A stretch of 64,000 bases of DNA from Gammaproteobacteria bacterium (GTDB lineage Bacteria > Pseudomonadota > Gammaproteobacteria > Enterobacterales > Psychrobiaceae). The position numbers and the translations under genes are program-made. The DNA lies in NCBI GenBank assembly GCA_013214965.1, contig JABSRU010000008.1, positions 62,001 to 126,000 on the forward strand, read 5' to 3'. A model generated the notes under the pieces. The model made no database searches and was not told the origin of the DNA. It saw only the letters and a program-made list of their open reading frames with translations. Positions 45,674-57,210 of this stretch are shown in pieces (positions within the stretch are counted from its first letter, which is position 1; each line of letters begins with the position of its first letter).

Positions 45674-46522
45674 TCAACGCGATAACAGCTCAAATAATGC
45701 TTTGTTTTGCTCTGACATTGCATTAACGGGGGTTAATACCGCACTTTGTAAAGCGTGATTACACTGGCTGTTGCATTGTGCTGGCGTTCCTTTTAGATAG
45801 GCCGCTAGCACTTTTTTCGCTTGGTTTAAGCTGTCGCCGTAACGGCTGATCACTTGTTCAACACTAACATTTTGGGCGGGATCATCTTGCCAGCAGTCAT
45901 AATCGGTGGCAATGGCGATGGTGCAGTAACAAATCTGCGCTTCACGGGCTAAGAATACTTCGGGCACATTGGTCATGCCGACTAAATCACAACCGGCGGC
46001 TGATTTTAAAAATAAACTTTCCGCTTTGGTGCCTAGTCGTGGGCCGTCAACACAGGCATAGGTTTTATGGCGATGAATGTTAATATTATCCGTGGCAGCG
46101 GCATCTGAAATAGCGTCGGCGAGCGCCTGACAAGTTGGCTGTGCCGTTGAAACGTGAGCTGCAATACCTTGACCAAAAAAGGTCTTTTCACGATGAGCTT
46201 TAATAAAATCGAAATATTGATCTGCAATGGCTAAATCGCCGGGTTTAATCTCTTGTTGTAAGCTGCCAACCGCTGACAAGCCAATGATTTGGTTGACGCC
46301 CAAACTCTTTAGCGCCCAAATGTTGGCGCGATAGTTCACTTCGTGGGGCAGTAGTGAGTGATGCTCACCATGACGGGCTAAAAACAGAATCTCTTGTTGT
46401 TGGTAGTGGCCGCGGATAATATCGGCCGAAGGCGAGCCAAAAGGCGTATTAATCTGATGTGTTTCAGTGATGGTTAAGCCATCGATACTGTAAATTCCGG
46501 TACCACCAATAATTGCTAACAT
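45674..46522 (-). CDS. mtnP: 5'-methylthioadenosine phosphorylase-like enzyme of the arsenic cluster
   Basis: A 282-residue nucleoside phosphorylase of the PNP/MTAP family. N-terminal IIGGTGIYSIDG and FLARHGEHHSLLPHEVNYRAN are typical. The purine site reads GMTNVPEVFLAREAQICY and ATDYDCW; the DYD pair is what gives MTAP its preference for 6-aminopurines, so the substrate probably carries adenine. It is the last gene of the arsM operon, 8 bp after arsC. Gammaproteobacteria usually hydrolyse MTA with MtnN, so a dedicated role on an arsenical adenosine is plausible. The alternative is ordinary MTA salvage. Confidence 0.88.
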   Translation of the reverse strand: MLAIIGGTGIYSIDGLTITETHQINTPFGSPSADIIRGHYQQQEILFLARHGEHHSLLPHEVNYRANIWALKSLGVNQIIGLSAVGSLQQEIKPGDLAIADQYFDFIKAHREKTFFGQGIAAHVSTAQPTCQALADAISDAAATDNINIHRHKTYACVDGPRLGTKAESLFLKSAAGCDLVGMTNVPEVFLAREAQICYCTIAIATDYDCWQDDPAQNVSVEQVISRYGDSLNQAKKVLAAYLKGTPAQCNSQCNHALQSAVLTPVNAMSEQNKALFELLSR

Positions 46523-46530
46523 ATTTACTC

Positions 46531-46956
46531 CTAAGTATTAAGTTGGGTGGGTAATGTTTCGATCCAATCTTTTATGTCATCACGCACTTGGCGGTAATAG
46601 GATAAAGACTCGTGTTCACTATTTGCTTGCTGGGCGAGTTTAGGTGGATCATCAAAGGGATGAACGAACACTTGAGTGGTATCGCTAAAGGTTGGGCAAT
46701 TGGCGGCAGCATGTTCACACACAGCAATGACATGATCAAATTGTGTGAGGTCAAATTGGTCTAAGGTTTCGGATTGATAATGACTAATATCAATATTAAT
46801 TTCTGCCATGACCTTAACCGCCAATTGATTTAAACCATGGGATTCAATGCCAGCAGAATAACTGATGTAATGTTGATTCAGTAGTGTGTTTGCTAGGCCA
46901 TGAGCCATTTGGCTACGACAAGAATTACCGGTACATAAAAATAGAATAGTTTTCAT
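46531..46956 (-). CDS. arsC: Arsenate reductase, thioredoxin-coupled LMW-PTP type
   Basis: A 141-residue low-molecular-weight phosphatase-fold protein. The P-loop CTGNSCRS has C8-x5-R14, and the redox Cys pair is C80 and C87 in VCEHAAANCP, the same spacing as in S. aureus ArsC. These three Cys distinguish arsenate reductases from plain tyrosine phosphatases. It would convert arsenate to arsenite for ArsM. I start at ATG 46956 (GGAAAACA upstream) instead of 46968. Confidence 0.92.
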   Translation of the reverse strand: MKTILFLCTGNSCRSQMAHGLANTLLNQHYISYSAGIESHGLNQLAVKVMAEINIDISHYQSETLDQFDLTQFDHVIAVCEHAAANCPTFSDTTQVFVHPFDDPPKLAQQANSEHESLSYYRQVRDDIKDWIETLPTQLNT

Positions 46957-46964
46957 TGTTTTCC

Positions 46965-47882
46965 TCACATTTCACTGCAACTGGCACCGAATGCAAAACA
47001 ACTGTAGCAGCGGTGGTGTTTTAAATTGATGGTTTTAGTCATGCTTTTTACTAAGGATGTTGCTAAAAAATAATCGTCGTCGTCATCAACTAAGGTGCAA
47101 GCATAAACCTGCATTTGGTTATTTTTTTTGATGATCATTTTCGAACTGGCGCACATATAATTTTTGCGTTGCTTCTCATTTTGATAAGTGGTCATACAAT
47201 GGGTGGTGATATGTGGGATGTCAGGCAATGATCCTGGTGGTAAAAAATCAGTAAAAGCGACGATATGTAAATTGCTCGGTAGGCCGTTTAGCGTCAGCAG
47301 TGCTTGGTATTGGTTTTCAACCTCGTCGCTGTTTTCATTGGACTTGATATGCCGTGCCAATGATAGGTGGAAACCATTATTGTGCAATAACCGCATGCCA
47401 ACTAATGCTTTGGCAAAGTTACCTTGGCCGCGACCTTGGTCATGGCTTAATTCATCAGCGGAATCAATGCTGATCCGAAATGAAATAGGGTGTTGTTTTT
47501 TAGCTTGCAGCCGTTGTAAGGCAGCGAAGCGTTTTAGCAGCGGCTCGGTGCCATTGGTTAGCACTAAACAAGGTTTGAATTGTGATGCGTAAGCTAAAAT
47601 ATCGATAATGTCTTTGGCTAAGAATGGTTCACCCCCAGTAAATGAAAACTGCTCAACCCCTAAGGTGAGCGCTTCGTCAATAAAAGGTTTTATTTCTGCG
47701 AGTTTTGGTGTTTGTAGGCGTTTGTCGGCGGGGCTGGATCCTTCCAAGCAAAAGCCACAGGCTAAATTACATTTAGTGCCAGTATGAAACCATAACTCGG
47801 TTAGGGCATGGGGTTGAATATAACCGCGAACATCACCATCGGGGGTGTATGCCCAGTCATTAGGTGATGAATGCTCGATCAT
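46965..47882 (-). CDS. Radical SAM enzyme with Cys-rich C-terminus, organoarsenical cluster
   Basis: A 305-residue radical SAM protein. The [4Fe-4S] motif CNLACGFC is C38-x3-C42-x2-C45, and the GGEP motif is in SFTGGEPFLA. The C-terminal third has further Cys (HCMTTY, MCASS, YACTLV) and a tail RCYSCFAFGASCSE with C292, C295 and C302, suggesting an auxiliary iron-sulfur cluster. It lies between arsM and arsC, overlapping arsM in an ATGA. By position it should do the job of ArsS (adenosyl transfer to dimethylarsenic) or ArsL, but it does not look like the ArsS family I know. Reaction not established. Confidence 0.85.
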   Translation of the reverse strand: MIEHSSPNDWAYTPDGDVRGYIQPHALTELWFHTGTKCNLACGFCLEGSSPADKRLQTPKLAEIKPFIDEALTLGVEQFSFTGGEPFLAKDIIDILAYASQFKPCLVLTNGTEPLLKRFAALQRLQAKKQHPISFRISIDSADELSHDQGRGQGNFAKALVGMRLLHNNGFHLSLARHIKSNENSDEVENQYQALLTLNGLPSNLHIVAFTDFLPPGSLPDIPHITTHCMTTYQNEKQRKNYMCASSKMIIKKNNQMQVYACTLVDDDDDYFLATSLVKSMTKTINLKHHRCYSCFAFGASCSEM

Positions 47883-48925
47883 TGACAACATCCTTTGGTG
47901 ATTGTAGCGGTTGAAAAATCTAACGATGAATGGGTGTTTTTTGATGAAAATATCCCGTGATGGGTTGAAAAATTACCATTGAAGACAAAATGTGACTTAA
48001 AGCGGGATTGTTGCAGGGTATGCCAAGTATTGCCGCTAACTTTAGTGACTTGACCACTGATAAAACGGCTGTCTTGATCGAGGTCGAATTTCAGTTGATG
48101 CTCAGGGATAGAGCCTTGGTAAGTGACGCTCAAGCCATAATCTTGAGGAACGGTTTCGAGCTTACTTGCTTTAAACAACCGATAGGTTGCTGAGACAAAT
48201 TTTATTTGACCGAGGCGCTGTGCAACATCCTCATTGTTGATGGCGATAGCACGACTCGTGACTAAGCGTGGTTCAATAAAACCAATGGTTTTAGCGAGTT
48301 GTTCAAAGTCATTCCAGTAGAGGGCTCCGCTTAGGCATTCACCGTATAATAAAGGATCATCACGCAAATGAGTGGGCACTCGCCTGTCGGCATAAACATC
48401 GGAAAAATAGAGTTCACCGCCGGGCTTTAAAATACGGAAAATCTCTCGTAATACCGCATTTTTATCCGGACTTAAATTAATGACACAGTTTGAAACGACA
48501 ACATCGATGCTGTTATCGGCAATGTTAAGTTGATCTAGTTGTTCGATATAGCCCGTTAAAAATTGGGTGTTAGCCTGTTGGTAGCCAAATTTGTCACGGT
48601 GATATTCAATGTATTGAGTCGCGACAGCCAGTTGTTGCTCGGTCATGTCGACACCAATAACGCTGCCGTGTTCGCCAACCATTTGTGCGATGGCATAGCA
48701 GTCGCGTCCCGCGCCGCATCCGAGATCTAGCACATGACAGTTATGCAATAATTCGGGAGTGACTAAACCGCAGCCATAATAGCGTGCCATGACATCAGCA
48801 TGAATGTTGGCTAATATCGCTTTAAGCGTGGGGGATAAGTTGTCATCGGTACAGCAAGCGTTAGTTTGTAGATCCTCAGAACTGGTTAATACCTTGCCAT
48901 AATAATCTTTCACAATGTCATGCAT
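47879..48925 (-). CDS. arsM: Arsenite S-adenosylmethionine methyltransferase
   Basis: A 348-residue ArsM. Four conserved Cys for arsenite binding and disulfide cascade are at C24 (NACCTDD), C52 (YYGCG), C147 (SNCVINLSPDK) and C197 (GECLSGALYW); C24-C52 and C147-C197 spacings equal those of the characterised algal enzyme (28 and 50). The SAM site is VLDLGCGAGRD. After the methyltransferase domain a 110-residue C-terminal extension ends in CCQ, a form found in arsenosugar-type clusters. It makes mono- and dimethylated As(III) species. Confidence 0.95.
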   Translation of the reverse strand: MHDIVKDYYGKVLTSSEDLQTNACCTDDNLSPTLKAILANIHADVMARYYGCGLVTPELLHNCHVLDLGCGAGRDCYAIAQMVGEHGSVIGVDMTEQQLAVATQYIEYHRDKFGYQQANTQFLTGYIEQLDQLNIADNSIDVVVSNCVINLSPDKNAVLREIFRILKPGGELYFSDVYADRRVPTHLRDDPLLYGECLSGALYWNDFEQLAKTIGFIEPRLVTSRAIAINNEDVAQRLGQIKFVSATYRLFKASKLETVPQDYGLSVTYQGSIPEHQLKFDLDQDSRFISGQVTKVSGNTWHTLQQSRFKSHFVFNGNFSTHHGIFSSKNTHSSLDFSTATITKGCCQ

Positions 48926-48932
48926 AGCAAAC

Positions 48933-49616
48933 TTACTCCGTTAATAGGTTGAATTGGTAGATAATATTTAGTAATGCCTGACGCGCTGGCCGTCGATCGG
49001 TTGGTAAATCGACCACCAGCTTGATGAGATCTTCAAGATGGTCAATGTCATAACTTGGTAATATGTAGTCAATGTTTCGCTGTTGAGCTTGGCACAATTG
49101 CGAGATAGCTTCAGACAATTTCTCACTACTCCAGGGCAGTGAATCTAGCAGTGGCCACGGCACGTTATTGGCTAAAATAGTCACGCCACCATCGTCGGCA
49201 TGACTAAATACCATGTCGTGATGGTTTAACGAGGCGATGGTGGCTTGGTAATGCTCGAGCGTTAACATGGGCGCATCGGTGCCAATAAATACCAATTGTT
49301 GATGTCCCATGTGTCGCAGTTTGTTATCGACAAAATTAAGTCGCTGACCTAAATTACCTGAGAGCCCGATTGGCAGTTGTGCAATGATGTCGGCATTGGC
49401 CATTAACGACTGTGCCCAAATAAGATCTCGATGTTCACTACAGGCAATAAAGACTGAACCCGGCCACTGATAGGCATCCTCAATGGCACAAGCTAATAAC
49501 GCCTCGGCGATCAACAAAGCATGCTCCGCGCCAATCTCTTGAGCGAGTCGTTGCTTGCCTTGACCTAAGGTCGGCCTTTTACAAAAAATCACTAAGCTTG
49601 CTGATGTTAAACTCAT
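48933..49616 (-). CDS. DUF2064 (TIGR04282-type) GT-A transferase
   Basis: A 227-residue nucleotidyl/glycosyltransferase-fold protein. N-terminal LVIFCKRPTLGQGKQRLA, central FIGTDAPMLT (Asp metal motif) and DDGGV are the family signatures. Members next to arsM are commonly named arsenosugar biosynthesis glycosyltransferases. The ATG at 49616 overlaps the previous stop as TAATG, so translation is coupled. Substrate unknown; it could attach the arsenoribosyl group or activate a sugar. Confidence 0.82.
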   Translation of the reverse strand: MSLTSASLVIFCKRPTLGQGKQRLAQEIGAEHALLIAEALLACAIEDAYQWPGSVFIACSEHRDLIWAQSLMANADIIAQLPIGLSGNLGQRLNFVDNKLRHMGHQQLVFIGTDAPMLTLEHYQATIASLNHHDMVFSHADDGGVTILANNVPWPLLDSLPWSSEKLSEAISQLCQAQQRNIDYILPSYDIDHLEDLIKLVVDLPTDRRPARQALLNIIYQFNLLTE

Positions 49617-50461
49617 TATGGCTCCGTACGTTGTTGGTTTAATTGCCACTGATAGCTAAATTTAGGTTGAGCTTGGTAATTTTTGAGCTGTTGTTGCAGC
49701 GATGGCCTAGCATAGTGATTGATATGTTTAAGTAGCTCGGCTTGATCAGCCCCAAAGTCATCAGAAAACCAATGGTAAATACTCGACAAAATCAAGGTTT
49801 GATGGCTAAACCTTACGCCTTTGGTTTGATTAATAAAGCGCGTGGCCGCGTGATCTAATTGTTGTTCGATATGGCTTGAACTAAAGGCTTTTAATCCAAG
49901 ATCTGGGCAGCTAGTGCTGGCGCAATTAATCACATAATGGATCCGGGGATCTTGCCAGATTGCTCTTAAAATCTTATGTTCAATCTGGTTTAAGCTCAGT
50001 TGTTGGCCACTAATAATCAGTTGTGGAATGTTCCATGGCCCAGTAAAACCATCACCAATGTCTTTAATGGATGCGATCGGATAATGGTTTAAAATGAGGT
50101 TAACGGTTAGTGCATTGTATAAATTAATCCAATAGGCTAATTGTTCATTTTTATTATAATTTTGCGGATCAATGCTTTGCAATTGGTTGAGATAATCGGA
50201 TAATTTCTGTTGGTCTCGGGGCGAAACGTCTCGGTAATTGAACGTGCGCCCTTGCTCAAGATCCACCAGATAGGTAGTTAAGATATCTTGCCATAATTGA
50301 TGATTTATTTGTTGATGACTATGCTCATTACTGATTTGCCAAAAGGCAATAGGACTGGGACTAACAGCCTGATAAAGGGTATAACTTTTTTGGGCTAACA
50401 ACAGGCCTATCACCAATAGTAGTAATATGAGAAACTTTGCTGTGAGCGATAAATTTAGCAT
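49616..50461 (-). CDS. DUF547 protein with N-terminal membrane anchor
   Basis: A 281-residue protein with one membrane helix (about residues 7-24) and a DUF547 domain: YWINLYNALTV, VINCASTSCPDL with conserved His/Cys, and SSIYHWFSDDFG. DUF547 is a cysteine-peptidase-like fold of unknown reaction that often travels with arsM and DUF2064 genes. It probably acts outside the inner membrane. Confidence 0.85.
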   Translation of the reverse strand: MLNLSLTAKFLILLLLVIGLLLAQKSYTLYQAVSPSPIAFWQISNEHSHQQINHQLWQDILTTYLVDLEQGRTFNYRDVSPRDQQKLSDYLNQLQSIDPQNYNKNEQLAYWINLYNALTVNLILNHYPIASIKDIGDGFTGPWNIPQLIISGQQLSLNQIEHKILRAIWQDPRIHYVINCASTSCPDLGLKAFSSSHIEQQLDHAATRFINQTKGVRFSHQTLILSSIYHWFSDDFGADQAELLKHINHYARPSLQQQLKNYQAQPKFSYQWQLNQQRTEP

Positions 50462-51189
50462 GAGCTACGCTGGCTTATTTTTTCTTGGCTAAAACGTAGC
50501 TTAGCAATCATCGATAAAATACCAATGCCAGCCTTGACCGAGCCCACTAGGGTGCCACTGATTTTCGATTGGCCAATGCGGATCTTCGAATCAACCGCAT
50601 ACTCATTGATCTGCATTTGACCGATAATGGCTTTAATCTGCATTTCAACGGTCCAGCCAAAGGTTAGATCACGCATGTTTAATTTTTGTAATGATGAATA
50701 ACGGATTGCTCGAAACGGACCTAAATCGCTTACTTGATACTGCCAAAATAGTTTAATTAAACGCGCTGCAAGCCAGTTGCCAAAACGTTGTGGTGTGGTA
50801 AGAGCGCCGGGTTCAATAATCCCTAGGGTTCGACTGCCAATGGCCAAATCATCACCGTTAACGACTCCGGTTAGCAATGGTATCGCCTGTTCAGCCCAGC
50901 AAGAATCATCACCGTCAACAAAGAGCACAATATCGCAAGGGGGTAAATGAGCGATGGCGGTTAAACACGCAATGCCATAACCTGGGGTTGTTTGTCTAAC
51001 GACTTGTGCACCCGCGTCGATAGCGACCTTGGCGGTATAATCGGTTGAGCCATTGTCACAGACCATCACGCAGTCGATAACCTGTTGTTGCTCGGCTTGC
51101 AATAGCAATAAACTCTCCACCACAATACCGATGGCATGTTGTTCGTTTAGCGCAGGGATCACAACTGCAATTTTTTGACCTTTATACAT
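50455..51189 (-). CDS. GT2 glycosyltransferase, dolichyl/polyprenyl-phosphate-sugar synthase-like
   Basis: A 244-residue soluble GT-A enzyme: VVIPALNEQHAIG at the N-terminus, DNGSTDYTAK, and the metal motif VDGDDS; later DLGPFRAIRY and TVEMQIKA fit the DPM1-like subgroup. Such enzymes move a sugar from a nucleotide to a polyprenyl phosphate, giving the donor for GT-C enzymes like the one two genes upstream. Overlaps both neighbours by 7-8 bp. Confidence 0.85.
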   Translation of the reverse strand: MYKGQKIAVVIPALNEQHAIGIVVESLLLLQAEQQQVIDCVMVCDNGSTDYTAKVAIDAGAQVVRQTTPGYGIACLTAIAHLPPCDIVLFVDGDDSCWAEQAIPLLTGVVNGDDLAIGSRTLGIIEPGALTTPQRFGNWLAARLIKLFWQYQVSDLGPFRAIRYSSLQKLNMRDLTFGWTVEMQIKAIIGQMQINEYAVDSKIRIGQSKISGTLVGSVKAGIGILSMIAKLRFSQEKISQRSSC

Positions 51190-53533
51190 TTTTTATCTCA
51201 ACTGTTGGTTTAGCTTGGCGTTGGGCAATTTGGACTGGACTTGCGGCCAGTCGATCTATCTTGATGATGGCAGCTGTGGTGCGATCAATTTCAGCAAAGG
51301 TTAAAGTGCCCGTCGGGCACACTTGAACACAAGCCGAACAGCGTACACATTGCGGATCTGTCATTGGCTGGCCTTTGTTGGCAAACGCCATCACATCAAT
51401 ACCTTGATGGCAGACGCTCGAACATTGATTACAACTAATGCATTTAGATTTTTCACTGATGATTGCAAATCGACTAAAGCGACTATAAATGTGCATTAGT
51501 GCCGCTAGCGGGCAGGCAAAACGACACCAAGTGCGACCGGAATACTTAAAATATAATCCGAAGCCTAATACCCCGGCTAAAAATATATCCACTAGCCACT
51601 TGTAGCTCACCGGATTGACTAATTGATAATCTTTGTTTTCCCCTTTGAGTAATAAGCTAAACATGTGATTCATCCAACTCTCGGGATAAACCCAACCGAG
51701 AATACGGATCACTAATAAGACGCAGGCAATCAATAAAATGAGCTGTCCTAACATATTGAGCTTATTCCATTTTGGACCATGGGGCATTTTATGCCGCTGT
51801 TGATCGCCCATGGTTTCGGCCATCGCACCACAGGAACAAATCCAGCTGCAATAAGCGCCTTTGCCCCATTTAAAGACAATTAATGGAATAATCACTAGGG
51901 TTTGAGTGGCTGCAATGATTAACCAAGGCCACTGTGGCTGATCGGTAAATACCGTGTAAACGCCGAGTGGCCAGGCAAAAATAAAGCTGTAGGCATGCCA
52001 GTAAGCACGAGGATGTCCCCAGTCAGGCCAATGATGGGCGGCTAATTCTTGGGCTGAGATATAACTGGGAAATAAGCCATCGGCAATGCTTTTGCCAATA
52101 CCACTATCAAATGCGCCATTGTAACCAAGCAAGGGTAAAATTATTTCCGGTAATAAAAATAATGGGAATAATTGAATCAAGAATAATACCGTGGTTTGTA
52201 CGGTGACATAGGGTGTGTTACGGCGTTTAATCCGTTGCCAACCAAAGACGCCAATTAAAAGGGTATAAAGTACCGTGTAATAGAAGGAACGACTTTTTAG
52301 GGAGACAGCAATGGTACCGACTAAAGTACTGCGATCATTGACTTGTATTTGCCACCATTCTCCCAGACCACCGATTAATGCTGGCATTTGGTCAGGGTAA
52401 GAAAAACTGCCCCACAAACTATTTAAAAAACCATAGCTTTTCCAGTCATACATTGCCGCTAGCGCGATAATAAACAGCGCTAAATAAAGCCAACCCAGTG
52501 GACTACTTTCACCGCTAATGGTTATGTTTGATTTTCTAAAGAAATTTAACGGCGCTTCTCGGCCGGTCGCCAGCAATATATGGTCGTTGGCGAGAGTTTC
52601 TTGTGCGCCATCTTGTTTGGTTAATATGGCAGTGGTGGTGGTAATTTGGGTTAGGTTCGTTGCCATTTTTAATTGGATTTTGTCTTGATCTACCAAGGTG
52701 TTGATCCGATCAATGTTTTCCGGTTTAGCGCGGGAGAATTCAGGTTGACGATAAGAGAGTGTCACCTTGGCATGACTTTGTGCGGTCGCAATCGCCGCTT
52801 CTAAGGCGCTATCACCGCCACCGACGATCAGTAAGTCACGATCGCGATAAATGGTCGGGTCAATTAAGCGATTGCTGACTTTATCGAGATTTTCACCCAC
52901 AATATTTAATTTTCGGTAATTGCCAGAACGACCAATCGCCACAATAACGCGATGGGCTTTTAATGTTTTTCCGCCTTGTAGGATCACGTCAATCGTCGTA
53001 CCGTGCTGTTTTAGATGACTGACTTTAACTAATTCAAGCTCAATTTTTTGATCGCTAATGGTTGCTTTAAGCTCGGCTAATAAATTTTCTTTATGACTGA
53101 CCTTATCTGAAAACTGTAACAGCCCTGCGGGTTTCATGGCAGTAGGGTAGGTGAAGATAGGTTTTTTATTGGGGAAATTAACCAGAGTTGAAAATGGTTG
53201 ATTCGCTTCTAATAACTTAAAATTTAACGATTGCTGCTTGGCTTCGATAGCTGCGGCATAACCACTAACCCCGCCACCAATAATGATAAGATCTGCGATA
53301 TCATCGGTGATAGTTCGACTTGAAAAATTAGCTTCGTTGACAATAGACTGTACTGCTTTGACACCGGTGTCAGCGGCAAATTTGAGTAACGGGACACCGG
53401 TTAAATCACCCACCACATAAACACCTTTGACATTGGTGGTGCCGTTAGCATTAATCAGTGGTTGTTTCTCAATTTCACTACTGGGCCAGCGACCATGTAA
53501 CCAATCGCTATAATTTGATATTAGGTTAATCAT
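51182..53533 (-). CDS. Membrane flavo-iron-sulfur oxidoreductase (NAD(P)-binding plus NapH/NosR-like)
   Basis: A 783-residue fusion. The first 60 residues end in VYVVGDLTGVPLLKFAADTG, a pattern normally found at the end of thioredoxin-reductase-like flavoproteins. Then come an FAD site IIGGGVSGYAAAIEA and an NAD(P) site LIVGGGDSALEAA (about residues 80-350). The second half has about six membrane helices and Cys motifs CSWICSCG and WCRFACPL as in NapH/NosR, then two ferredoxin clusters (CISCNQCSSVCHQG, CVRCSACVQVCPTG). It may pass electrons from NAD(P)H across the membrane. Acceptor unknown. I use ATG 53533, overlapping the preceding gene by 8 bp. Confidence 0.82.
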   Translation of the reverse strand: MINLISNYSDWLHGRWPSSEIEKQPLINANGTTNVKGVYVVGDLTGVPLLKFAADTGVKAVQSIVNEANFSSRTITDDIADLIIIGGGVSGYAAAIEAKQQSLNFKLLEANQPFSTLVNFPNKKPIFTYPTAMKPAGLLQFSDKVSHKENLLAELKATISDQKIELELVKVSHLKQHGTTIDVILQGGKTLKAHRVIVAIGRSGNYRKLNIVGENLDKVSNRLIDPTIYRDRDLLIVGGGDSALEAAIATAQSHAKVTLSYRQPEFSRAKPENIDRINTLVDQDKIQLKMATNLTQITTTTAILTKQDGAQETLANDHILLATGREAPLNFFRKSNITISGESSPLGWLYLALFIIALAAMYDWKSYGFLNSLWGSFSYPDQMPALIGGLGEWWQIQVNDRSTLVGTIAVSLKSRSFYYTVLYTLLIGVFGWQRIKRRNTPYVTVQTTVLFLIQLFPLFLLPEIILPLLGYNGAFDSGIGKSIADGLFPSYISAQELAAHHWPDWGHPRAYWHAYSFIFAWPLGVYTVFTDQPQWPWLIIAATQTLVIIPLIVFKWGKGAYCSWICSCGAMAETMGDQQRHKMPHGPKWNKLNMLGQLILLIACVLLVIRILGWVYPESWMNHMFSLLLKGENKDYQLVNPVSYKWLVDIFLAGVLGFGLYFKYSGRTWCRFACPLAALMHIYSRFSRFAIISEKSKCISCNQCSSVCHQGIDVMAFANKGQPMTDPQCVRCSACVQVCPTGTLTFAEIDRTTAAIIKIDRLAASPVQIAQRQAKPTVEIKNV

Positions 53534-54887
53534 AAGCAGTCTCCCGGTGGGATAAGAATCGTGCGAAAGCACAAAGGTATAGCAGCCCCAATAACACGAC
53601 GGGCCACATGGCTGGCTGCCAAACCTGACAACATAGAAATTGATCGAGCACTTGGTAAGTGAATGGCATCAGGATTAACCAAGCGAGTAAATAGCCATTA
53701 GGTTGCAGCGCAACTAAGGGAACAAGTGGCATTAAATACCAAGGAAAAACCACGGGACTAAGGATTAAAGGTAAAGCCAATGACAAGGATAAACACATTA
53801 AGATCCGTGGGTTTTGGCTGGTGGTTGTTTTTCTTTGGCTAAAGCAGGTATAAGCAATACCCGTTGCCATTAGAGCGCCAAAGATCACAACGCCGATTAA
53901 AGTATGATCAAATGCTAGATAATCGAGCAAGCTAAATAGCGGCGATCCAAAGCGCCATTTATCAAAAAACACACCAATACTGCCGATGGGGTGATAACCT
54001 AATGCGATAGTGATGCCATAGCCACTGATGATGATACCCAAACAACAGCCGACTAATTTCACGGCTGATTTAAGTGGTGATAGCGCAAAAAATAACGGCA
54101 ACAACAACATCAATGGCAGCACTTTTAACAGCATACCGACCCCAATAATCGCACCACAACTCGCTGTTTTACGACATTGCCAGGCATAAACGGCGCAAAT
54201 CACCGCTAAGGTTGATAATGCATCGAGATGCAGCCCGCCACCGGTTTCTAAAATAAGCAAAGGAGAAAGGGCTACTAAGGGGAGATGTTGTAGGCTATTG
54301 TTTTTTTTCAATACTAGAGCACTGACCCAAACCGTGAAGAGGCCAGCGACGAGTAAGATAATTTTCCAAATCCATTGCGCATGTTCAATTCCGCCGGCGG
54401 CGGCCAATGAAAATATTGCCAATGCCAATGGCGGATAAAGAGTGACGTAAGCGGCATGCTCATTGGGCGGTTGCCATTGTGCGCGTAGCGTGGCTAATGC
54501 GTGATCATCATGACTGAGACGATAAGGATCAAAGCCTTCATAAGCAATACGGCCGTCAAACAAATAGCGGTCGACATCATTGGAAGTATAAGGTTCGAGG
54601 TTGAGCAATAATATTCTGGCTAATATTGCCACTAAAAACAAACAACGATAACCTCTGAACTGCTGAGATTTTGGCGATAAAAACCAAGCACCTAACATGA
54701 AAAATGCCATTAACGTATATTGAACAATGGTATAAAAACCAAGTTGGTTCGAGGTGGTTAATGGTGTGGCAAGACTGGATAGATAATAACTGCTAGCCGT
54801 TAATAACAACACACCGAGCAAACAGCCATAATATAACGATGACTTAATTCGCGGTTGCTCGATCAATTGGCTTAGCAATAATTTCAT
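53526..54887 (-). CDS. GT-C (GT87-like) polyprenyl-phosphate-dependent glycosyltransferase
   Basis: A 453-residue membrane protein with about ten to twelve helices. The first large loop contains SNDVDRYLFDGRIAYEGFDPYRL, here cited in parts (NDVDRYLFDG, GFDPYRL), the acidic catalytic loop of mannosyl/glucosyl-transferring GT-C enzymes. It uses lipid-linked sugars on the outer face of the membrane. Context suggests the DPM-like GT2 of the same operon supplies the donor. Confidence 0.8.
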   Translation of the reverse strand: MKLLLSQLIEQPRIKSSLYYGCLLGVLLLTASSYYLSSLATPLTTSNQLGFYTIVQYTLMAFFMLGAWFLSPKSQQFRGYRCLFLVAILARILLLNLEPYTSNDVDRYLFDGRIAYEGFDPYRLSHDDHALATLRAQWQPPNEHAAYVTLYPPLALAIFSLAAAGGIEHAQWIWKIILLVAGLFTVWVSALVLKKNNSLQHLPLVALSPLLILETGGGLHLDALSTLAVICAVYAWQCRKTASCGAIIGVGMLLKVLPLMLLLPLFFALSPLKSAVKLVGCCLGIIISGYGITIALGYHPIGSIGVFFDKWRFGSPLFSLLDYLAFDHTLIGVVIFGALMATGIAYTCFSQRKTTTSQNPRILMCLSLSLALPLILSPVVFPWYLMPLVPLVALQPNGYLLAWLILMPFTYQVLDQFLCCQVWQPAMWPVVLLGLLYLCAFARFLSHRETAYD

Positions 54888-54896
54888 AACGGCTAC

Positions 54897-56381
54897 TTAT
54901 TTCGACAACTGATAGTAGCTGCGTAAGCTACTAATGGCAGTGGTCATAAACCCTAAGGTCAGCACTAAAATAAAGGGCAACATAAACCAATGTTGATTAT
55001 CGATAGCCCATAGCAGCACGATTAAATAAATAACCGCGATGAAAAATTCAAAGATCGCGCCCTTAGGGGGAATGGCTTGATAAGCCGGAAGTGAAATATT
55101 GGTTAAGCTACTCTTTGGCTTTAGTTGCTGTAAATCACCGGTTTTTGGGGTGCGAATAAAGTCACTTTTCTTGCCTAATAAGGCGTCTAATCCGGCACGT
55201 GAGTTGTTAATTGCTAGCTGAATTCCCAGTAGCATTAAGCTGGGTAATTTGAAAAAAGCACTGCGTTTTGAACGCCCGAGTACCACTTGACCAAAATATA
55301 GGTACATTAGGTGGCCACCCGATGACATCACCAGCAATGGAATATCTAACCACCAAATATTAATAAAATCATGCTGATTACGCAGGTATAAACTGGGTAC
55401 TAAAAAGAATAAGGTATCAATTAACATCACCAAATAAGCGAGATTGTTTGATAAGTGAAAGGTCGATTCTATCTTTTTACTTAATGGAATTTTTGCTTTC
55501 CACACCGAGGGCAGCATCTTTTTCATCACTTGAACCCCGCCTTTAGCCCAACGGTATTGTTGGCTTTTAAAAGCATTCATGTCGGCGGGTAATTCACCAG
55601 GGCAGGTAACGTTGTTAAGGTAAACCATTTTCCAACCAGCGAGTTGAGCGCGATAACTAAGATCGAGATCTTCAGTTAGGGTATCAGCGCTCCAATGACC
55701 AGCATCAATGATCGCCGTCGTGCGCCAAATTCCTGCGGTGCCATTAAAATTAAAGAACATATCGCTCGCACAGCGAACTTGTTGTTCAAGGGCAAAGTGG
55801 GCATCTAACATAATGGCTTGGGTTTTGGTTAACAAACTACGGTCGCGGTTTAAATGTTCCCAACGCAATTGCACCATCGCAACATCGGGTTGGCTGAAAT
55901 GGTGAATACTGTCGAGTAAGGTGCCGGGAGCAGGAATAAAATCTGCGTCAAAAATAGCAATAAATTCACCGCTGGCACTCGCCATCGCATCTTTGAGTGC
56001 ACCGGCCTTAAACCCTTGGCGTTTTAGACGTTGTACATGCTCAATATTGTGCCCTTGTTGCTGATAATGGCTGACTCGTTCGGCGATTAGCGCGCTGGTG
56101 TCATCGTCAGAGTCGTCGACAATTTGTATTTGTAAACGATCGGCGGGGTATTGAAGCAAGACAATGGCATCAACAACTCTTTTTGCTACCAAACGTTCAT
56201 TGTACAACGGGATTTGTACCGTGATTCTTGGGAGCTCAGTAAAGTTGATTGGGGACTTTACATGATGTTTTCGATATTTAAACCACCGAATAATCATTGA
56301 GACACGATGCAAGCCAAATAGGCACAAGATGGCGAGCAGCACAAAATGAACAATAAGCATTAACGAGCTGATAAAAGACAT
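54897..56381 (-). CDS. Processive GT2 membrane glycosyltransferase (cellulose/mannan synthase-like)
   Basis: A 494-residue protein with helices near 5-25 and in the C-terminal third. GT2 motifs: VQIPLYNE, VDDSDDDT, FDADF, TEDLDL and QQYRWAKGG (the QxxRW of processive synthases). Closest in style to glucomannan/CslA-type synthases. The ATG at 56381 is 4 bp after the upstream stop; the frame runs 30 codons further up into that gene and is not used. Confidence 0.87.
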   Translation of the reverse strand: MSFISSLMLIVHFVLLAILCLFGLHRVSMIIRWFKYRKHHVKSPINFTELPRITVQIPLYNERLVAKRVVDAIVLLQYPADRLQIQIVDDSDDDTSALIAERVSHYQQQGHNIEHVQRLKRQGFKAGALKDAMASASGEFIAIFDADFIPAPGTLLDSIHHFSQPDVAMVQLRWEHLNRDRSLLTKTQAIMLDAHFALEQQVRCASDMFFNFNGTAGIWRTTAIIDAGHWSADTLTEDLDLSYRAQLAGWKMVYLNNVTCPGELPADMNAFKSQQYRWAKGGVQVMKKMLPSVWKAKIPLSKKIESTFHLSNNLAYLVMLIDTLFFLVPSLYLRNQHDFINIWWLDIPLLVMSSGGHLMYLYFGQVVLGRSKRSAFFKLPSLMLLGIQLAINNSRAGLDALLGKKSDFIRTPKTGDLQQLKPKSSLTNISLPAYQAIPPKGAIFEFFIAVIYLIVLLWAIDNQHWFMLPFILVLTLGFMTTAISSLRSYYQLSK

Positions 56382-56385
56382 TAGA

Positions 56386-57210
56386 TTAATAGACCTTTGT
56401 GATGCCAAGTTGAATCGAATTACCTTGAAGGGTGTTGTCACCATAAATTTCACGGGTAAAAGTGAGTTCAATGCCGTAGCCCTTGAGTGCTCCTTGTTGG
56501 TTGAAATTCCAGCCGGTGGTTAGTTCTAATTTTCCAGAATCAGACGCTAACGGATTGGATAAATTTTGGCTTATTTGAGAGCCGGGGTCAGAGTTGTTGG
56601 CACTTAAAATCCCATCGAGTTTGGTTCTAAAATAGAGGTTTTTATTAACACTAAAACCGTATTCAAATAAATAACGATACTCATCTGATGGTGCGCCCGA
56701 ACGTAAACGATACCCTAATTCGATACCGACATAACCATATTGATTTAAACTTTTACCGAATAAAACTTTCGCTTCATAGTCTTCTTGATGATTACCAAGG
56801 CCATCTTCTTTGTCATACAAAAAAGGTGTTTTGATCAGTAATGAGGTCGATAACACAAAAGGTTCAGCCTGCCATTGATAACGCAGCCCTAACTCGGTAT
56901 CACTAAACCCACTGGCGTGACTTTTTCCAATAATGGCATCGTCTTGGTCATAGGACTGATGCAGCAATGAGCCATATAATGCAAAACTACGACCTAAGCC
57001 ATATTCAGCGTAAAGCGAGGTATTTGTACTGTCGAATTCTTTAAAGGAAGGGTTGTTACCAAGATAGGTTGTTGAGTGATAAGTTGCATAACCTAGCTTG
57101 GTATAGCCAGTCCCTTTGGCGCCAACCCAAGCACCTGCCGATGCTTGAAATGAACATGTGATAGCCGACAATGTTAATAATGCCGATGTTAATCCGTGAT
57201 GATTCTTCAT
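56386..57210 (-). CDS. Outer-membrane beta-barrel protein, function unknown
   Basis: A 274-residue protein with a signal peptide cut near QASAGAW. The rest consists of alternating amphipathic strands rich in Tyr, Gly and Ser (YTKLGYATYH, LGLRYQWQ, GIELGYRLR) and ends in an aromatic residue pattern, QLGITKVY, as in barrel proteins. It is the first gene of the arsM operon and may be a porin or exporter for its product. I cannot assign a family. Confidence 0.72.
   Translation of the reverse strand: MKNHHGLTSALLTLSAITCSFQASAGAWVGAKGTGYTKLGYATYHSTTYLGNNPSFKEFDSTNTSLYAEYGLGRSFALYGSLLHQSYDQDDAIIGKSHASGFSDTELGLRYQWQAEPFVLSTSLLIKTPFLYDKEDGLGNHQEDYEAKVLFGKSLNQYGYVGIELGYRLRSGAPSDEYRYLFEYGFSVNKNLYFRTKLDGILSANNSDPGSQISQNLSNPLASDSGKLELTTGWNFNQQGALKGYGIELTFTREIYGDNTLQGNSIQLGITKVY

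Follow-up and report, generated by a model that had tools for sequence, protein, structure and literature searches.

A divergent radical SAM enzyme in an arsenic gene cluster that probably takes the place of ArsS

A radical SAM gene in an arsenic gene cluster

The window, as we call the whole 64,000-nt stretch of DNA analysed here, holds a cluster of genes that all run one way and several of which overlap as called. In order of transcription, they encode a protein of unassigned kind, a large probable glycosyltransferase (recognized by eye), a GT87-like protein, a YpdA/NapH fusion, a family 2 glycosyltransferase (GT2), a DUF547 protein, a TIGR04282 protein, an ArsM-type methyltransferase, the radical SAM protein under study, an ArsC-type reductase and an MTAP-type phosphorylase:

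56386–57210, (−) strand: protein with a signal-like start, outer-membrane protein as a guess; kept with the cluster in five related genomes (L060–L064)
54897–56471, (−) strand: large protein, read by eye as a glycosyltransferase; also kept with the cluster in L060–L064
53526–54887, (−) strand: GT87-like membrane glycosyltransferase, a weak match (PF09594, 19.9 bits; gathering threshold 25)
51182–53572, (−) strand: YpdA-like flavin reductase fused to a NapH-like membrane ferredoxin (TIGR04018, 133.7 bits; TIGR02163, 59.3 bits; both below cut-off)
50455–51189, (−) strand: family 2 glycosyltransferase of the AglJ/polyprenyl-phosphate type (TIGR04182, 102.1 bits, cut-off 325; PF00535 above gathering threshold)
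49616–50461, (−) strand: DUF547 protein (PF04784, 98.4 bits), with a counterpart in the ArsS cluster of L116
48933–49649, (−) strand: TIGR04282-type (CofC-like, DUF2064) transferase of arsenosugar clusters (111.7 bits, below the cut-off of 134, full model covered)
47879–48925, (−) strand: ArsM-type arsenite methyltransferase, 348 aa (NF008823, 186.7 bits, cut-off 263, E = 5.8e-55)
46965–47882, (−) strand: radical SAM protein of an unnamed family, 305 aa, proposed ArsS substitute
46531–46956, (−) strand: ArsC-type arsenate reductase of the thioredoxin family (TIGR02691, 137.7 bits, cut-off 174.3, E = 2.5e-40)
45674–46522, (−) strand: S-methyl-5′-thioadenosine phosphorylase-like protein, MTAP (TIGR01694, 286.1 bits, above the cut-off of 274.85)

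The radical SAM reading frame has two in-frame ATG codons, at 47882 and 47891, which give proteins of 305 and 308 aa, respectively. The start at 47882 is probably the right one because it overlaps the ArsM stop codon (ATGA) and is preceded, at 8 bases, by AAAGGA; it agrees with the coordinates in the original prediction, 46965–47882, which left the (−) strand unstated. For arsC, the list of open reading frames calls a GTG start at 46968, and the ATG at 46956 looks likelier.

The YpdA/NapH fusion is a possible electron supply. A tblastn search of the 22 other loci of the close branch defined below matched it in L064 only (67% over 785 aa); at several of the others, an FAD oxidoreductase of a different make lies near the radical SAM gene. 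All 9 genomes of the window's genus have an ordinary MTA/SAH nucleosidase, which in the window's own genome is a fragment at the end of a contig. The cluster MTAP is therefore not needed for routine salvage and is probably dedicated to the cluster. The TIGR04283 family has no match in the window's own genome at 1e-20, and the window carries a gene of TIGR04282 type.

A distinct, conserved radical SAM family

The radical SAM protein has a canonical TGGEP motif and its only Pfam match over the gathering threshold is PF04055 (60.2 bits against 29.5). The original prediction described a CxxxCxxC motif at C38–C45 and a cysteine-rich tail, RCYSC-x6-C. Both descriptions hold: the motif cysteines are C38, C42 and C45 in the 305-aa form (C41, C45 and C48 in the 308-aa form), and the tail reads RC295YSC298-x6-C305 (308-aa numbering, used from here on). 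When the window protein is aligned with 19 homologues at 48–73% identity (20 sequences in all), nine cysteines are invariant: the three of the motif plus C232, C247, C265, C295, C298 and C305. The six C-terminal cysteines show no variation among 15 members of a second branch either, nor when 22 sequences are aligned jointly.

The homologues divide into a close branch A (at least 48% identity) and a far branch B (about 28–36%), whose profiles align over their full length (hhalign, E = 3.4e-68, 298 columns). Branch A occurs in 9 of 9 genomes of the window's genus and in 4 others among the 58 genomes searched, the window's own included. At 1e-20 or better, the window protein matches in 8 of 369 genomes of a class sample and in 39 of 398 of a phylum sample. 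By identity and coverage, the 39 comprise 8 of branch A, 29 of branch B and 2 of Rv1681 type (G599 and G613), the last two set aside because both match over the core only; the G599 protein also exceeds the Rv1681 cut-off, and the label of G613 rests on its core-only match. One branch A member lies in a Pontiellaceae metagenome-assembled genome, adjoining a DUF547 gene, and a scan of genome contigs turned up one relative, L005. A copy on a Marinobacter adhaerens plasmid (L117, 9001–9916) is unannotated and matches in two pieces, like a broken gene. The gene is real, well conserved and a member of a distinct family.

An AlphaFold2 model of the window protein (mean pLDDT 88.4, pTM 0.87) predicts a hairpin at residues 250–263 (strands 250–256 and 259–263), with the invariant C247 and C265 on either side, as well as a terminal helix at 295–301. 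The predicted hairpin is as expected for a twitch-like auxiliary domain, as which we tentatively read it. The best structural match is BlsE (Z = 21.0, 248 residues, rmsd 3.3, model residues 28–308), followed by the peptide maturases SkfB (Z = 19.4) and SuiB (Z = 18.9). These matches, together with a sactipeptide maturase as the second-best NCBIfam match (67.7 of 625 bits), would fit a SPASM/twitch-type maturase of a small peptide that sits near arsenic genes by chance. We consider that explanation extremely improbable: similarity of fold is poor evidence on substrate, the same neighbours are found in several taxonomic families, no peptide-maturation genes were recognized by eye among them, and genomes carrying the family exclude ArsS, as described below. 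Among the 25 best NCBIfam matches, no model, of a maturase or otherwise, reaches its cut-off; NF033640, for example, gives 41.8 of 170 bits.

Sequence relation to ArsS and Rv1681

In line with the original prediction, the window protein does not look like a classical ArsS: the ArsS model TIGR04167 gives it 41.1 bits against a cut-off of 300, over model positions 3–150 only. The far-branch proteins L083 and L080 score 61.2 and 68.1 bits, and the true ArsS of L116 scores 471 bits. The C-terminal domain PF12345 (DUF3641), which gives 199 bits in the ArsS of L107, has no match in the window protein. Membership of ArsS is therefore rejected on model score and domain, whereas the proposal that the protein works like ArsS is retained.

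A more distant relation to ArsS is suggested by profile comparisons. All 22 members of alignment A4 match TIGR04167 at 0.001, with a best E of 7.5e-19. The branch A profile aligns with ArsS profiles at a probability of 97 over 262–267 columns with the tail cysteines in register, whereas with MoaA, two paralogues and Rv1681 it aligns over 133–173 columns (133 for MoaA and 173 for Rv1681, in both cases the core only). The full-length alignment is suggestive only, because branch B aligns with ArsS over just 177–188 columns of the core and because ArsS aligns with the paralogue L004 over 267 columns as well (probability 78). The ArsS structure model reaches a mean pLDDT of only 71.6.

Rv1681 is the family whose core sequence is closest to the window protein. 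Its model, NF049973, is the best NCBIfam match and gives 117.1 bits against a cut-off of 380, over positions 72–239 of 326; the Rv1681-type protein of L096 scores 497 bits on the same model. In a tree with long branches, A and B group with ArsS at 84/70 support, which is not significant, and a grouping with Rv1681 is not rejected (p-AU 0.34), so that a clade with either is neither demonstrated nor rejected. Equivalence to Rv1681 was rejected on the score below cut-off and on the lack of the tail cysteines in one member, L096.

Conserved neighbours around an exchanged enzyme

The arsenic link of the gene is strong by gene context. We counted neighbours at 23 branch A loci, the window included, which are not independent because 9 are of the window's own genus. 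Within the retrieved DNA, ArsM is present at 16 of the 23, TIGR04282- or TIGR04283-type genes at 17 and MTAP at 10; at one locus, L065, a contig end cuts the side on which ArsM would lie. In the window's genus, arsC is near the radical SAM gene at 8 of 9 loci. Around branch B genes, ArsM and MTAP are each nearby at 2 of 18 loci. Judged by coordinates, four genomes of family f231 (G528, G532, G772 and G787) have ArsM no more than 2 kb from the B gene; the 18 loci include those of G532 and G772.

Other neighbours vary. In Roseomonas (L119, 5028–11988), a far-branch gene stands with TIGR04282, DUF547, a phosphonate-type ABC transporter, a metallophosphoesterase and a radical SAM gene whose best match, below cut-off, is TrsS. 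At the f208 loci L078, L079 and L099, a membrane protein that looks symporter-like from its sequence follows the radical SAM gene, joined in L078 by a protein without a Pfam match; arsM was not found in the retrieved DNA of these three loci.

Like ArsS, the window gene clusters with ArsM, TIGR04282, MTAP and DUF547. We compared the window with one annotated ArsS cluster, on an Acinetobacter plasmid (L116), which runs arsS, TVP38/FAD oxidoreductase, DUF547, TIGR04283, TIGR04282, methyltransferase and phosphate transporter, with mtnP on the other strand. Between the two, the ArsM proteins are 57% identical over 338 aa, the MTAP proteins 45% over 275 aa, the DUF547 proteins 32% over 207 aa and the TIGR04282 proteins 30% over 200 aa; between the radical SAM proteins, identity is only 22%, across 154 core residues. 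In this comparison, therefore, the partners, ArsM above all, have been kept and the radical enzyme has not. On a Cupriavidus plasmid that lacks annotation, too, a methyltransferase and an ArsS-like reading frame lie near each other.

Mutual exclusion with ArsS

Genomes were searched for the A/B family (398 phylum genomes), TIGR04283 (396) and ArsS (396) in samples that overlap nearly wholly. ArsS was found in 116 of 396 genomes at 1e-40 or better (114 over cut-off) and A/B in 37 of about 396, and the number of genomes with both is 0. No ArsS genome is among the 39 that match the window protein, and within the TIGR04283 list no taxonomic family has both. Fisher values for this exclusion overstate the case because many of the genomes are related, family f225 alone contributing dozens.

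TIGR04283, a partner of ArsS in L116, is present in 34 of the 37 A/B genomes (absent from G000, G014 and G787). The 175 genomes with a TIGR04283 match at 1e-20 include 34 with A/B, 104 with ArsS and 37 with neither; a recount at 1e-32 or better, which leaves out weak matches such as those of G486 and G597, both with ArsS, gives 153 genomes, divided into 34, 102 and 17. In 10 of these last 17, the A/B profile gave matches, all of core length only. Nine of the 17 belong to f225, in which ArsS is usual, and most of the nine are fragmentary assemblies. Genomes with a strong TIGR04283 match and neither enzyme include G419, G494, G707 and G786 (f196), G590, G641, G675 and G434, for which a further radical SAM type or a use other than arsenic is possible. 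By coordinates, TIGR04283 adjoins the B gene in G528, G532 and G704 and mostly lies apart from it, and it is not next to the A gene in f196 or f208. This weak adjacency, together with the four f196 genomes that have TIGR04283 and neither ArsS nor A/B, limits the value of TIGR04283 as a marker, and the link consists in large part of co-occurrence in genomes that are related.

The distribution of arsM bears on what the enzyme acts on. By similarity to the window's ArsM, a homologue was found in 17 of 36 A/B genomes tested (all 17 of the window's order, not a random draw) and in 8 of 23 ArsS genomes; none was found by this search in the 17 genomes with neither enzyme or in the two Rv1681-type carriers tested, L096's genome being among those searched. 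The model NF008823 picks the same 25 of these 78 genomes, and NF038099 detected no ArsM in the other 53. About half of the tested carriers thus have no detectable arsM, so that either methylated arsenic reaches them from outside or some family members act on another substrate.

The latter would be so if the enzyme were a 5′-deoxyadenosyl transferase for an acceptor other than dimethylarsinous acid, be it another metalloid or a sulfur, phosphorus or carbon centre, with the arsenic genes as one specialization. Besides the carriers in which arsM was not detected, the phosphonate-type ABC transporter adjoining the gene in Roseomonas would suit this explanation, as would L096, where an Rv1681-type gene accompanies a nucleoside phosphorylase, TIGR04282 and glycosyltransferases in a genome in which arsM was not found. 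We regard it as possible but unlikely for the window's enzyme, given the gene's position next to arsM at 16 of 23 A loci and near arsC at 8 of 9 loci of the genus. Moreover, the same question stands for ArsS: arsM goes undetected in its genomes no less often (15 of 23), yet ArsS acts on arsenic, according to the accessible text of PMC12159101.

Proposed function

Taken together, the evidence suggests that the window protein is probably a divergent radical SAM enzyme that takes ArsS's place and transfers 5′-deoxyadenosyl to dimethylarsinous acid. It points to the same reaction as that of ArsS, performed by a different protein, rather than to new As–C chemistry, and the A/B enzyme is most likely an alternative arsenosugar synthase. 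Several lines of evidence lead to this reading. First, the operon swap, the lack of co-occurrence with ArsS and the conserved neighbourhood are all as expected of a substitute. Second, the gene is found in all nine genomes of a genus that has an ordinary nucleosidase. Third, the A and ArsS profiles align over their full length, and HpnH and HpnG offer a precedent. We count against it the carriers without detectable arsM, the rarity of arsM beside branch B genes, the weak adjacency of TIGR04283, the missing internal cysteines and TGGAP motif of ArsS, a core nearer to Rv1681, the unsettled tree, the core-only alignment of branch B with ArsS and the equally long alignment of ArsS with L004. The original prediction had proposed a distinct As–C bond-forming family; the distinct family and the arsenic context stand, and the comparisons made here favour the known ArsS reaction over a new way of forming the bond.

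In the pathway that we envisage, ArsC and ArsM would convert arsenate to dimethylarsinous acid. A [4Fe-4S] cluster with bound SAM would generate a 5′-deoxyadenosyl radical, whose addition to As(III) would give 5′-deoxy-5′-dimethylarsinoyl-adenosine; the tail cysteines may hold an auxiliary Fe–S cluster that helps to settle the electron of the adduct. The cluster MTAP is proposed to strip adenine from the radical SAM product, exchanging it for phosphate by phosphorolysis. The CofC-like TIGR04282 protein would then activate the arsenic-bearing ribose and the glycosyltransferases would attach it. This order, adenosylation followed by removal of adenine, would parallel that of HpnH and HpnG in hopanoid synthesis.

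The MTAP gene admits another account, in which the enzyme cleaves SAM the other way, as ArsL would, and transfers 3-amino-3-carboxypropyl to arsenic while the adjacent MTAP recycles methylthioadenosine, its normal substrate. That radical SAM enzymes can make such a transfer to arsenic is known from ArsL (PMC12159101 and PMC8552651, in the parts available). Yet the genome already has an MTA nucleosidase, and the window protein has no sequence relation to ArsL: against the ArsL of the annotated arsinothricin locus L128, BLAST gives E = 0.92 and hhalign a probability of 0.7%, in line with the view of the original prediction that ArsL is a separate type. No arsQ-, arsL- or arsN1-type gene was recognized among the window's neighbours from the list of open reading frames and family matches, and TIGR04282, TIGR04283 and DUF547 accompany ArsS in L116, not ArsL in L128. 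Identity with ArsL is rejected on sequence and gene content, and we hold an ArsL-like transfer to be very unlikely.

A broader and rather doubtful idea is that a single wider type of pathway, in which arsenic is one acceptor among several, has three radical SAM front ends: ArsS, A/B and Rv1681. Each front end would adenosylate some acceptor and a phosphorylase would remove adenine; TIGR04282 would activate the resulting 5-deoxy-5-substituted ribose-1-phosphate, and GT2- or GT87-type enzymes would transfer the product to a lipid or glycan. Under this scheme, a ribose-derived glycoconjugate would be the product of the mycobacterial Rv1681 gene. Around the Rv1681-type gene at L096 (2321–10582) there are genes of the Rv1679 and Rv1680 types, neither reaching its cut-off, as well as a nucleoside phosphorylase, TIGR04282 (156.6 bits, above cut-off), a GT2 resembling AglJ, what may be a membrane mannosyltransferase, and another radical SAM gene.

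If, as we propose, the A/B enzyme does the job of ArsS, and if ArsS is the sole handle for searches, the capacity to make arsenosugars would be overlooked in a good part of the phylum, since 34 of the 175 genomes that match TIGR04283 carry A/B and not ArsS. Two very different enzymes would then form the same unusual As–C bond, and the residues that matter could therefore be worked out by comparison. In the papers that our literature searches covered, we came across no second radical SAM family reported from arsenosugar clusters. The available portions of PMC8801600 and PMC13077682 mention TIGR04282 or arsenosugar glycosyltransferase genes and make no mention of radical SAM, and that of PMC12608789 has nothing on ArsS.

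Comparison with known systems

The closest functional parallel is ArsS, for which the accessible text of PMC12159101 describes the adenosylation of arsenic. The window protein resembles it in length, radical SAM core, cysteine-rich tail and partners (ArsM, TIGR04282, DUF547 and MTAP). The expectation in the original prediction that ArsS would have a different C terminus was not borne out: ArsS also ends cysteine-rich, with C-x14-C followed by CYGC (CxxC)-x7-C where the window protein has C-x17-C followed by CxxC-x6-C, and the profiles align over their full length, if weakly. The two differ in that the A/B family has one extra tail cysteine (C232), reads TGGEP where ArsS reads TGGAP, and has neither of the two internal invariant cysteines of ArsS. 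As for TIGR04283 as a cluster partner, it is found with several relatives of the window protein, although the window's own genome has no match at 1e-20.

Rv1681 is nearer in its core, but its C-terminal half does not align with the window family, and the member in L096 is without the tail cysteine pattern. ArsL is alike in being a radical SAM enzyme linked to an ArsM. The reference protein of L128 (424 aa) scores 653 bits on NF040542 and has otherwise minor matches, several of them to B12-binding radical SAM families; the ArsL of B. gladioli (428 aa) carries its CX3CX2C motif at residues 194–201, as given in the available part of PMC8552651.

Finally, the HpnH/HpnG pair offers a proposed analogy in reaction logic, radical SAM adenosyl transfer followed by removal of adenine by a phosphorylase: HpnH attaches 5′-deoxyadenosyl, after which adenine is taken off by HpnG, a putative phosphorylase (PMC12583986, accessible part). 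The substrate is different, the HpnH model gives the window protein 32.3 of 225 bits, and the window's phosphorylase matches MTAP models rather than HpnG.
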